Source: Oscillospiraceae bacterium (GTDB taxonomy: Bacteria; Bacillota; Clostridia; Oscillospirales; Ruminococcaceae). From it: a stretch of DNA of 64,000 nt. Position 1 is the stretch's first letter, and each line of letters begins with the position of its first letter. The translations under genes were made by a program, and so were the position numbers. The stretch spans positions 1-64,000 of the forward strand of contig JAQXHC010000035.1 in assembly GCA_029007035.1 (NCBI GenBank), in the 5' to 3' direction. Positions 1,349 to 5,699 of this stretch are shown one piece after another. The notes under the pieces are model-generated. The model saw only the letters and a list, made by a program, of their open reading frames with translations, ran no database searches and had not been told where the DNA came from.

Positions 1349-2182
1349 TTATTTCTGTCCGCTTCTTGTAAGAATGGTATCTGTATAGGTGCTGAGGTCT
1401 TCACGGATAGTATCCATATCTATACCGGTTGTATATGGTTCGTAATAATCCAGTACTGCCTCAGAAAGGTCTAATACTGCTGAGAATACATTATATGGTC
1501 CCATTGCAGTCGCTACCACATCATCATAAAGCAAGCCGTCTTCAAAATCGTCAATAGCGCTTTGTAAATCTACTTTGCTTACAACTCCGGTCATTTTGGA
1601 TAATTCAGATGAAATATCCACACAATAGCTATAAAGAGTAGAAGTACTGCTGGTATACTGCATCAGCTGAACAGTTTCAGTCATACTTGTCACAGCGTCA
1701 CCGTCTGTTCTCAGATTCTTGTCTATTGTGTTGCACTTTTCAAAAAGCGAGTCCACCTTTTCGCCTAAAGCTTCATATTGGATAAATTCATCTGCTTCTT
1801 CGGGCGTATTTTCAATTTCTGTCATTATTTCCCTGACAGCCTCATAGCTGCTTTTAAGTCCGTCTGCACTGGACAGATTTATAGTCAGCGCATCAATTTT
1901 TTCATTTATAGAACCGGAAAGTTCCTCTGAATATTTTTTTCTGCCGTCTATAAGGTTATCGATTCTTTTCTTGTCAACATCTTTTTTATCTTCCTCAGAT
2001 AAATTGTCATAAAGTTCGTTTGCGGAAGATATCTGTTCTTCAATTTCCGGAGTGTATTCATCCGGCAGAGCATTTATTGCGTTCTGTGCAGACTTTGCAG
2101 CATCTGACATTCCACAGCCGCTCAGGATTGCAGCTCCCATGATAACCCCTGAAAATAATGCTATAAATTTCCTCTTAGTCAT
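1349..2182 (-). CDS. predicted lipoprotein of unknown function (coiled/helical)
   Basis: MTKRKFIALFSGVIMGAAILSGCG lipobox; ATG with upstream CAGGAG. Confidence 0.75.
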   Translation of the reverse strand: MTKRKFIALFSGVIMGAAILSGCGMSDAAKSAQNAINALPDEYTPEIEEQISSANELYDNLSEEDKKDVDKKRIDNLIDGRKKYSEELSGSINEKIDALTINLSSADGLKSSYEAVREIMTEIENTPEEADEFIQYEALGEKVDSLFEKCNTIDKNLRTDGDAVTSMTETVQLMQYTSSTSTLYSYCVDISSELSKMTGVVSKVDLQSAIDDFEDGLLYDDVVATAMGPYNVFSAVLDLSEAVLDYYEPYTTGIDMDTIREDLSTYTDTILTRSGQK

Positions 2183-2207: not shown

Positions 2208-2621
2208 TTATTTGTTTTCCTGTCTTTTTGCGATTGCTTTAAAAAGGCTTAAACCGAAAAATGCAATCATAAAGATACCTGTGCAAATCAGAAAAGCATT
2301 TGCGAATTTCTCCATAACACCTCCCAGAACTATTATATTTCCTGCGGCTGCTTTTGTGGCAGCGTATATCTCTGTGTAAAAATCTGCTCCGAATGTGATT
2401 TTGCGAAGGTAATCGTAGTCATAAAAATTTATACCGTATATTCCCGATATCAGTGAACATATACCTGCTGCCTGGCCGATAATACAGTAAATAACCTGCA
2501 TTATAAACGGAATCTTGTTTGTCCGGCCGGCAGATATTGCTGACGGGCTGTTATCACATTTACAGAACTCGCATACTGTGTCTTCCGGTCTCATTTCTTT
2601 TCCGCAATTTTTGCAAAACAT
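2208..2621 (-). CDS. zinc-ribbon membrane protein
   Basis: MFCKNCGKEMRPEDTVCEFCKCD CxxC...CxxC ribbon followed by hydrophobic segments. Confidence 0.75.
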   Translation of the reverse strand: MFCKNCGKEMRPEDTVCEFCKCDNSPSAISAGRTNKIPFIMQVIYCIIGQAAGICSLISGIYGINFYDYDYLRKITFGADFYTEIYAATKAAAGNIIVLGGVMEKFANAFLICTGIFMIAFFGLSLFKAIAKRQENK

Positions 2622-2651
2622 AATCTTTTCCTCCAATTATTTTTATTAATT

Positions 2652-2665
2652 AGTCATATATGACT
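2652..2665. promoter_or_regulatory. operator-like palindrome AGTCATATATGACT
   Basis: 14-bp perfect palindrome between the divergent zinc-ribbon and XRE genes; core recurs at 2715-2726 and 2748-2758. Confidence 0.55.
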
Positions 2666-2698
2666 GATTATAATATATTACAATCTAATAAGATTAAT

Positions 2699-2726
2699 TT
2701 GTCAAGAAAAAACAATCATATATGAT
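2699..2726 (+). promoter_or_regulatory. promoter of XRE gene with overlapping palindrome ATCATATATGAT (2715-2726)
   Basis: TTGTCA-16-TATGAT; the -10 hexamer lies within the palindrome. Confidence 0.55.
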
Positions 2727-2754
2727 AAAATTTCACATGAAAGGAGTGTCATAT

Positions 2755-3087
2755 ATGGCTTTTTATCAGAGAATAAGAGATTTAAGAGAGGATTCGGACA
2801 AAACCCAGACGGATTTGGCTGAGTACCTCGGCACAACGGCGCAGTACTACGGAAAATACGAAAAGGGAGAGAGGGAACTGCCTTTTTCAAGAGCGATACA
2901 GCTTGCGGACTACTATAATGTAAGCCTTGACTATCTTGCGGGTCGAAAAAACTATAACGGACATCTGACTTCAGAGGAGGAAGAACTGATATGCTCATGG
3001 CGTTCACTTTCGGAGCGCAGTCGGGGAAAAGTGGAATATCTAATGGCAGAGCTTGCACAGCAGGAGACAAAAAAAGCCGGTGCATGA
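2755..3087 (+). CDS. XRE-family helix-turn-helix transcriptional regulator
   Basis: YQRIRDLREDSDKTQTDLAEYLGTTAQYYGKYEKGERELPFSRAIQLADYYNVSLDYLAGR; RBS AAAGGAG at 2740. Confidence 0.92.
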   Translation: MAFYQRIRDLREDSDKTQTDLAEYLGTTAQYYGKYEKGERELPFSRAIQLADYYNVSLDYLAGRKNYNGHLTSEEEELICSWRSLSERSRGKVEYLMAELAQQETKKAGA

Positions 3088-3185
3088 TTAAAATGAAATG
3101 CAGAATCTGAAATTAATTCAGTTTTTTTGAATGAATAAAAAATTATGAACAATTCTAATTCATGACGATTTTATCAAGATAAATA

Positions 3186-3226
3186 AAAAATCCACTGAAA
3201 GAGTATATTTCTCTCAGTGGATTTTT
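3186..3226. terminator. bidirectional terminator between XRE and metH-like genes
   Basis: aaaaatccactgaaagag/ctctcagtggattttt inverted repeat. Confidence 0.8.
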
Positions 3227-3317
3227 CTTTAGAGTTTATCTGTATCATATTTATGGCACCCGGTATCTCCTGTATATTTACATGAGCAGATATCAGGCAC
3301 TGCGCAGAATCCCGGAT

Positions 3318-5699
3318 TTACCGGTATATTTCAGAAGCTATATCAGCTGTACGCTTGGCGTCTTTGGCATAGTAGTCAGCATTGATGCTTTTGGCATAAG
3401 ATTCAGTCAGAACCGCTCCTCCAACCACAGTTTTACAGTCCGGGTATTCCCTGTTCAGCAGGGCAACAGTCTCCGCCATTGCTCCGAGAGTAGTGGTCAT
3501 GAGCGCAGAAAGACCCACGAGCTTTACCTTATGCTCGATTGCGGCATCGACGATCACACGGCTGTCCACATCTCTTCCCAGATCAATTACCGTGAAGCCA
3601 TAGCTTTCCAGCAAAACCTTGACAATATTTTTTCCTATGTCATGAATATCGCCTTTAACCGTCGCAAGAACAACCTTGCCCTTTGAGATATCACCTGCCG
3701 ACACTGATGAAAGCTTCTCCTTGATCACCTCGAAGCACGCCTGTGCCGACTCGGCGGTGAGTATGAGCTGAGGCAGGAAAATAATCCCTTTTTCAAACTT
3801 CTCGCCTACACGGTCGAGAGCAGGTATAAGACAGTTATTGATAATCTCCATTGGGTCGGATTCATCGGCGAGAGCCTTCACCGCGCTGACTGCATTTTTT
3901 TTGAGTCCGCTTTCCACAGCGCTGATCAGAGCCTGTGCCTTATCGGCAGGAGCGGGATCAGCTGATGTCTTCGGAGATTCGGAAGCGGCTGTATTCGCAT
4001 AGTGACCGATATAGGCCGCGGAATTCCGGTCGATGCCCGCAAGCACGCGGTAACCATGAACAGCTCCGATAATTGAGGGGATATTCGGATTTATAATCGG
4101 CAAATCGAGTCCGCTGTGCAGAGCCATTGTAAGGAATGTCCGGTTGAGCAGTTCCCTCTCGGGCAGTCCGAAAGAAATATTTGACACACCAAGAACGGTT
4201 TTCAGTCCGAGCTTTTCTTTGACCATTTTCAAAGCTTTCAGCGTTTCGGCAGCTCCGTCCTGTTCAGCGGAAACGGTCAGCGTAAGGCAGTCGATATAAA
4301 CGTCCTCCTTTGGAATTCCATACTCCTCGGCACGACAAAGTATCCGCTCTGCGATGGCGAATCTGCCCTCGGCTGTTTTAGGAATTCCGCCCTTGTCAAG
4401 AGTCAGTCCGACAACCGCAGCTCCGTATTTTTTAACAAGGGGAAGAATAGTTTTCAGTGAGTCCTCCTCGCCGTTAACGGAATTGACAATAGGCTTGCCG
4501 TTATATATTCTTAGTCCGGCTTCGAGCACTTCGGGAATGGTCGAATCGAGCTGAAGCGGAACATCATAAACAGACTGAATCGCCTTCACCGCACTGACCA
4601 TCATAGCCTTTTCATCGATTTCGGGAAGTCCCACGTTGACATCAAGTATTTCCGCGCCCGAACCGACCTGCTCCGCCGCCTGACCGACGATATAATCAAG
4701 GTCGTTTTCGGCGAGAGCCTGCTTGAATCGTTTTTTGCCTGTGGGATTGATTCGCTCTCCGATAACGCGCGGTCCGTCAATTTCAACAAATGTCACCGAA
4801 GAACAGACTCCCGATCGCCGCGGAGCGGTTCTCGGAGTATATTCAAGCTCTGAAAGAGCCTCGCGGACTGCGGCAATGTGAGCCGGAGTAGTACCGCAGC
4901 AGCCTCCGATAATTTTAACACCTGCCTCTGCAAGCTTAACCGCACTCTCCGCAAACTGCTCCGGAGTTACGTTGAATTTATTTGTGACCGGGTCGGGAAG
5001 CCCTGCGTTAGGCTTGGCAATTACCGGAAGCGTCGTTAATCTGCATATTTTTTCCGTAACGGGAAGAAGCTCGTCCGGACCGAGAGAGCAGTTCACGCCC
5101 AGAGCATCCGCCCCCAGCCCCTCAAGAACCGCCGTCATGCACTCGGGAGGAACTCCGAGAAAGGTCCGCATATTTTCCTCAAACGTCATAGTCACCATAA
5201 CAGGCAGGTCGGAATTCTCCTTTGCCGCAAGAAGAGCAGCCTTTACCTCATAGAGGTCGGACATGGTTTCAATAACGATAACATCTGCATTTCTGCCTGC
5301 AATGACGATTTCTCTGAAGCAGTCATAGGCTTCCTCAAAGCTCAGTGAGCCGGAGGGTTCAAGAAGCTGCCCAGTCGGACCGATGTCGAGAGCGACAAGG
5401 GCCTTTCCCTCCGATGCTTTCCGGGCATTTTCGATTCCCGCTTCGATAAGCTGTGCCGGAGTATATCCGCAGCCTGCGGTTTTATATCGGTTGACTCCGA
5501 ATGTATTTGCATAAATTATATCCGCGCCGCTTTCGGCATACTGCCGGTGAATGTCCATAACAGGTGACGGATTTTCCACGTTCAGCAGCTCGGGAATATG
5601 CCCTGCCGATATTCCTGCGGACTGAAGCATCGTACCCATTCCGCCGTCAAGATAAACAAAACCGCTGCCGTCAAGAAGATTATAAAATTTATCTTTCAT
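3318..5699 (-). CDS. methionine synthase-like protein: homocysteine methyltransferase + pterin-binding + B12-binding domains, no C-terminal activation domain
   Basis: GGMGTMLQSAG..., IIGGCCGTTPAHIA, VIGERINPTGKKRFK, VKGDIHDIGKNIV cobalamin motif; protein stops after the B12 domain. Confidence 0.92.
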   Translation of the reverse strand: MKDKFYNLLDGSGFVYLDGGMGTMLQSAGISAGHIPELLNVENPSPVMDIHRQYAESGADIIYANTFGVNRYKTAGCGYTPAQLIEAGIENARKASEGKALVALDIGPTGQLLEPSGSLSFEEAYDCFREIVIAGRNADVIVIETMSDLYEVKAALLAAKENSDLPVMVTMTFEENMRTFLGVPPECMTAVLEGLGADALGVNCSLGPDELLPVTEKICRLTTLPVIAKPNAGLPDPVTNKFNVTPEQFAESAVKLAEAGVKIIGGCCGTTPAHIAAVREALSELEYTPRTAPRRSGVCSSVTFVEIDGPRVIGERINPTGKKRFKQALAENDLDYIVGQAAEQVGSGAEILDVNVGLPEIDEKAMMVSAVKAIQSVYDVPLQLDSTIPEVLEAGLRIYNGKPIVNSVNGEEDSLKTILPLVKKYGAAVVGLTLDKGGIPKTAEGRFAIAERILCRAEEYGIPKEDVYIDCLTLTVSAEQDGAAETLKALKMVKEKLGLKTVLGVSNISFGLPERELLNRTFLTMALHSGLDLPIINPNIPSIIGAVHGYRVLAGIDRNSAAYIGHYANTAASESPKTSADPAPADKAQALISAVESGLKKNAVSAVKALADESDPMEIINNCLIPALDRVGEKFEKGIIFLPQLILTAESAQACFEVIKEKLSSVSAGDISKGKVVLATVKGDIHDIGKNIVKVLLESYGFTVIDLGRDVDSRVIVDAAIEHKVKLVGLSALMTTTLGAMAETVALLNREYPDCKTVVGGAVLTESYAKSINADYYAKDAKRTADIASEIYR

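Follow-up and report, generated by a model that had tools for sequence, protein, structure and literature searches.

Introduction

The restriction-modification controller C.Csp231I acts at two palindromic 15-bp operators with an 18-bp gap between them, that is 33 bp from centre to centre; the length of the spacer is critical but its sequence is not, and the second dimer needs that spacing (PMC4321490). Rco, encoded by the Bacillus plasmid pLS20, represses its own gene and an operon from overlapping divergent promoters, both activates and represses its own promoter, and loops the DNA between two separated operators (PMC4207663). Two further repressors, SinR and an arbitrium-phage repressor (PDB 1b0n and 9iaq), consist of a helix-turn-helix (HTH) followed by a helical C-terminal region.

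The locus studied here lies in a 64-kb stretch of DNA from a gut bacterium of the Oscillospiraceae related to Ruminococcus, analysed over its full 64,000 nucleotides and called the window below. The gene xre (2755-3087, plus strand) encodes a 110-aa Cro/C1-type HTH regulator, with the HTH helices within residues 2-61 and a two-helix C-terminal extension at 73-109. Its match to Pfam HTH_3 (8e-16, 58 bits against a cut-off of 23) places it in the XRE family, and an AlphaFold2 model (pLDDT 87, pTM 0.58) has the same HTH domain and two-helix extension. The fold matches with known biology included SinR, the arbitrium-phage repressor and C.Csp231I. The first two were the top matches, although they share only about 20% identity with XRE, and no SinI- or AimX-like antirepressor was identified at the locus. 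Controllers of the C.Csp231I type (PDB 4jqd and 4jcx), with a small HTH and a C-terminal helical extension like XRE, were among the best matches, and the 33-bp spacing of C.Csp231I is a good model for the spacings of 30, 32 and 33 bp described below. The XRE locus differs in having three to four sites between divergent promoters and another recognition sequence, and no restriction-modification genes were present among the ORFs around xre. It resembles the Rco locus in its overlapping divergent promoters and in the predicted repression of the regulator's own gene and an operon, whereas Rco loops DNA between separated operators and the XRE sites all lie within 108 bp.

The best NCBIfam model for XRE was the inovirus repressor RstR (NF041951, E 4e-15), but assignment as RstR was rejected because the score of 56.1 bits is below the curated cut-off of 80. 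The window copy is not in an inovirus genome, and no phage genes surround it. The phage proteins nearest to XRE are the repressors of two filamentous phages, bajarodino viruses 43 and 76. That of bajarodino virus 76 (Inoviridae) is 49% identical to XRE, and its promoter region is arranged like that of xre and has repeats of its own; this repressor/divergent promoter region (4360-4480 of that record, locus L100) carries repeats of the TATTCCA type. The viral contigs searched gave only two distant relatives, and the plasmids and phages searched gave none at 60% identity or above. A description of the module was not found in the literature searched, which was covered in part. The system is one of a known kind, and its added interest lies in an operator that had been missed, in operators that covary with the regulator and in a portable block with swappable envelope cargo.

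Results and discussion

Two back-to-back promoters can be read by consensus between xre and the gene transcribed away from it. The divergent promoter (2677-2705, minus strand) has a -35 element TTGACA at 2705-2700, a 17-bp spacer and a -10 element TGTAAT at 2682-2677. It was absent from the list produced for the window by a simple promoter scanner. Its columns are near-invariant among relatives, most of which have TATAAT as the -10 element, so that the version in the window is the weaker one. On the plus strand xre has an extended -10 element, TG-A-TAAAAT (2723-2731), of which TGnTAnnnT is near-invariant; the scanner listed an alternative -35/-10 pair, TTGTCA-16-TATGAT, at 2699-2726. The stretch TGTCAA at 2700-2705 is common to both promoters.

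The initial annotation had described three palindromes upstream of xre, at 2652-2665, 2715-2726 and 2748-2758. All three named sequences are there and the inverted repeats are real, but a further one between the first two had been missed. The four sites comprise three conserved copies and one that is restricted to a lineage. O1 (2652-2665, AGTCATATATGACT) lies just downstream of the point at which the divergent transcript is expected to begin. O2, the overlooked site (2682-2695, AATCTAATAAGATT), sits within the spacer of the divergent promoter, and in the upstream alignment of relatives it is a conserved AATCTATTTAGATT-like repeat. O3 (2714-2727, AATCATATATGATA) overlaps the extended -10 element of xre, and the putative O4 (2748-2759, GTCATATATGGC) spans the xre start codon. 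The centres, at 2658.5, 2688.5, 2720.5 and 2753.5, are separated by 30, 32 and 33 bp, or about three helical turns, and these spacings are almost constant across relatives. Two of the palindromes are, on the sequence, almost certainly operators.

The abundance of such sites was compared with expectation. In the window TCATATATGA occurs twice against 0.06 expected, and CATATATG four times (2655, 2717, 2750 and 37188) against 0.85. The 133-bp intergenic region contains two perfect matches to ARTC-N6-GAYT and three to RTC-N6-GAY, counts that were attained by only 5 and 7, respectively, of 20,000 Markov-1 random sequences; these figures should be read cautiously because the pattern was derived, post hoc, from the same data.

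When genome contigs were scanned with the 110-aa protein, 53 loci were found, nearly all in MAGs of Ruminococcus and other Oscillospiraceae. The 125 bp upstream of the start codon were aligned and 38 non-redundant sequences were kept. Conservation by column is about zero upstream of 2651 and rises abruptly there, at the left edge of O1. From this point the arms of O1 to O3 and both promoters are conserved: in O1 C2655 and G2662 are invariant and the arms are kept, and in O3 both the ARTC arm and the GRT arm are kept, the outer pair lacking palindromic symmetry in relatives. The centres vary. Since the C and G of the O1 arms are invariant while the centre changes, it is the arms that appear to be recognised, and the element conserved in the DNA upstream of about 45 XRE orthologues in Oscillospiraceae MAGs is ARTC-N6-GRYT. 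The CATATATG core, which the initial annotation had taken as the motif, was consequently rejected, as it is just this genome's version of a centre that differs between relatives. Some homologous loci (L040, L052, L018 and L020) count against this picture, as they have either no site that can be recognised or no divergent gene that convinces.

O4 is the least secure of the sites, because it is confined to part of the family and provides only one independent contrast on the tree, but on balance it is probably an operator in this lineage. Among 32 relatives in which codon 2 of xre is GCN, 23 have RTC in the exact operator register at O4, as against none of 17 others, and RTC in registers shifted by 1-6 occurs only 0-2 times. 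The central 6 bp are variable, and the distance from O3 to O4 is 33 bp in 18 of 22 relatives. A quite plausible alternative, if one short of probable, is that O4 alone is no operator but an extended Shine-Dalgarno sequence followed by a conserved Met-Ala start. Many relatives do have GAGTG or GTGAT strings after the ribosome-binding site, and the trait is clustered on the tree, with a single supported independent contrast for the co-occurrence, so that the phylogenetic test has no power. Such a constraint is less easily reconciled with the exact register, with the variable centre or with a spacing like that of the other sites.

The most satisfactory reading of the whole arrangement is that it is very probably a self-contained, local, autoregulated divergent switch in which XRE binds O1 to O3 and probably O4 too. 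XRE, probably as dimers joined via their C-terminal helices, would occupy these sites. To judge from the overlaps, occupancy of O1 and O2 would shut off the strong divergent promoter from which the zinc-ribbon/lipoprotein operon is transcribed, and occupancy of O3 (and O4) would limit transcription of xre itself. A spacing of about three turns would set the dimers on one face of the DNA, where adjacent dimers may bind cooperatively if the DNA between them is bent, a mechanism that has been proposed for C.Csp231I. As to derepression, the fold makes a small antirepressor the likeliest candidate, by analogy with SinR and the arbitrium-phage repressors, though this is a guess.

The overlapping divergent promoters and several operators also recall the pLS20 Rco switch (PMC4207663), and XRE could accordingly work in two phases, activating its own promoter at low concentration and repressing it at high, while O1 and O2 serve to repress the divergent operon. 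This is unlikely, as some 40 bp separate the centre of O2 from the xre -10 element, O3 covers that element and no second regulator is encoded at the locus.

Which protein reads the sites can be judged from more distant XREs. These keep the same chassis, namely the divergent TATAAT, a palindrome, TGTCAA, a second repeat and the xre -10 element, but the palindrome depends on the recognition helix. In the orthologues of the window's XRE the recognition helix TTAQYYGKYE is near-invariant, and helix TTAQYYGKYEKG goes with ARTC-N6-GAYT. Helix TTQPQYSRYETG is accompanied by ATATCC-N4-GGATAT or a close variant at 5 of 5 loci, and helix MQLTVYQRYERG by AACACC-N4-GGTGTT at both loci where it was found. 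With helix T(S/K)QTVYSRYERG (the TSQTVYSRYERG/TKQTVYSRYERG group) TTAGTAC-N5-GTACTAA or close variants are found at O1. In these other subfamilies the O2 position likewise holds clade-specific palindromes. The grouping of helices and palindromes was judged by eye rather than by formal statistics; in the groups inspected, the operator sequence covaries with the recognition helix. As the palindromes change with the helix while the promoter chassis stays, there is strong evidence, and the best available, that XRE itself binds its neighbouring palindromes. Several distant homologues have a layout without the chassis and palindrome, as would be expected if they are functionally unrelated.

A second XRE homologue, 47% identical and with a different recognition helix, is encoded in the same genome on another contig (C41, 18034-18231). 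The palindrome upstream of it is of the TTAGTACTAATCAGTGCTAA type, and it belongs to the T(S/K)QTVYSRYERG/TTAGTAC class.

The covariation also bears on two other explanations. It is very improbable that some other palindrome-binding regulator of the host uses the sites and that the adjoining XRE is incidental: binding by XRE is indeed a prediction, but the sites travel with XRE over about 45 loci, where they face unrelated genes, and XREs with other recognition helices have other palindromes at the same place. Equally hard to credit is the idea that nothing binds specifically here and that the palindromes simply arise from the AT-rich sequence of -10 elements and start codon, for although O3 and O4 overlap sequence under other constraints and the bare TCATATATGA is not enriched in the genome, O1 lies outside both core promoter elements and its symmetric C and G are still invariant in the 38 relatives, and the palindrome changes with the helix against a constant promoter. 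The autoregulated divergent switch is preferred, and the original suggestion that XRE controls both its own gene and the zinc-ribbon/lipoprotein unit is strongly supported by the footprint, by repeated operators that overlap both promoters and are conserved with the regulator, and by the covariation of helix and operator.

A search of the genome for the core had been suggested as a way to define a wider regulon. When this was run on the 2.18-Mb genome, TCATATATGA was found 6 times and its reversed control word 5 times, which shows no enrichment of the core by itself, and the paired site was found at this locus only. The loose single site ARTC-N6-GAYT was in excess, with 179 copies against 108 for its control; the centres of the hits that were listed are unrelated. 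These counts give no indication of a genome-wide regulon, and the switch appears to be mainly local, within the limits of an assembly that is 87% complete.

The first divergent gene (2208-2621, minus strand) encodes a 137-aa zinc-ribbon protein with hydrophobic (transmembrane) segments by hydropathy; its match to Zn_Ribbon_1 is weak (E 0.0027, under the cut-off). The second (1349-2182, minus strand) follows 25 nt behind and encodes a predicted lipoprotein of 277 aa. At L037, where the switch is also present, the divergent gene is homologous to it (30% identity, E 1e-30), which supports its membership of the controlled unit. A hairpin at 1300-1336 (AAAAGAGCATctcatattgAAATGCTCTTTT) is a likely terminator of the lipoprotein unit. 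Between xre and metH, at 3185-3227, there is a strong hairpin with a T tract that looks like a terminator for the minus strand and perhaps for both strands. The neighbours of xre are rplM/rpsI on one side and metH on the other, the nearby ORFs being the zinc-ribbon gene, the lipoprotein gene and metH; a check for an empty site between rplM and metH in relatives from the genus found that the two are not neighbours there.

Comparison with a close relative defined a conserved block. The XRE of locus L007 is 93% identical to that of the window, and by blastn the two loci match only between -104 and +357, counted from the start of xre, apart from 114 bp of rplM leader. The common block, comprising operators, promoters and xre, thus runs from 2651 to 3112 in the window, with unlike flanks on both sides. 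The rplM leader match lies on the far side of the cargo: both loci are beside rplM and their divergent genes differ. Loci L014 and L017 are likewise similar in DNA only from -104 onward.

Taken over all loci, the divergent genes are not related to one another. They include CHAP, Amidase_6 and lysozyme proteins, often with dockerin, ricin-lectin or peptidoglycan-binding domains, as well as BspA repeats, lipoproteins and small membrane proteins with zinc ribbon, TM2, SHOCT or PH domains. By a simple hydropathy rule, 28 of 33 divergent genes have a hydrophobic segment, and so look membrane-bound or secreted, as against 52 of 126 other ORFs nearby (Fisher, 5e-6), and the segment is near the N-terminus in 25 of 33 against 32 of 126 (1.7e-7); these P values are indicative, as ORFs were called mechanically and kinship between loci was only partly removed. 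When the cargo was sorted by hand into four classes, at least 16 changes were needed on the XRE tree, whose resolution is poor. On this evidence the block seems to behave as an unusually portable unit, the same regulator and operators facing unrelated membrane or secreted proteins in relatives.

Some types of cargo recur. In eight Ruminococcus MAG loci (L008, L011, L013, L014, L021, L022, L029 and L041) the divergent genes encode secreted dockerin proteins that carry CHAP, amidase, lysozyme, lectin or repeat domains. Small zinc-ribbon genes like that at 2208-2621 are found at L024, L035, L050, L053, L056, L075, L076 and L104, the last on a Subdoligranulum plasmid record; the proteins mostly have a transmembrane segment and stand behind several different XRE subfamilies. 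At L016 the divergent gene (2547-2902) resembles a broken remnant of the L014 repeat protein, and the switch is intact.

Conclusions

A broader history can be proposed tentatively. The immunity region of filamentous phages may contain the cassette too, and bacteria may repeatedly have joined different envelope or secreted cargo, including peptidoglycan hydrolases, to it at the O1 edge; the many pairs of helix and operator in a fixed chassis could then document, in nature, the evolution of specificity in XREs. This is an attractive possibility, though we would not yet call it probable.

XRE regulators are very common and for the most part unassigned, and here is a subfamily of them in which the sequence is enough to read off the operators, the promoters and the likely targets. 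The fixed promoter chassis with its helix-linked palindromes makes a ready data set for the rules of XRE recognition. For the Oscillospiraceae, it points to a shared route by which variable proteins of the surface or the secreted fraction, including some cell-wall hydrolases, may be controlled.
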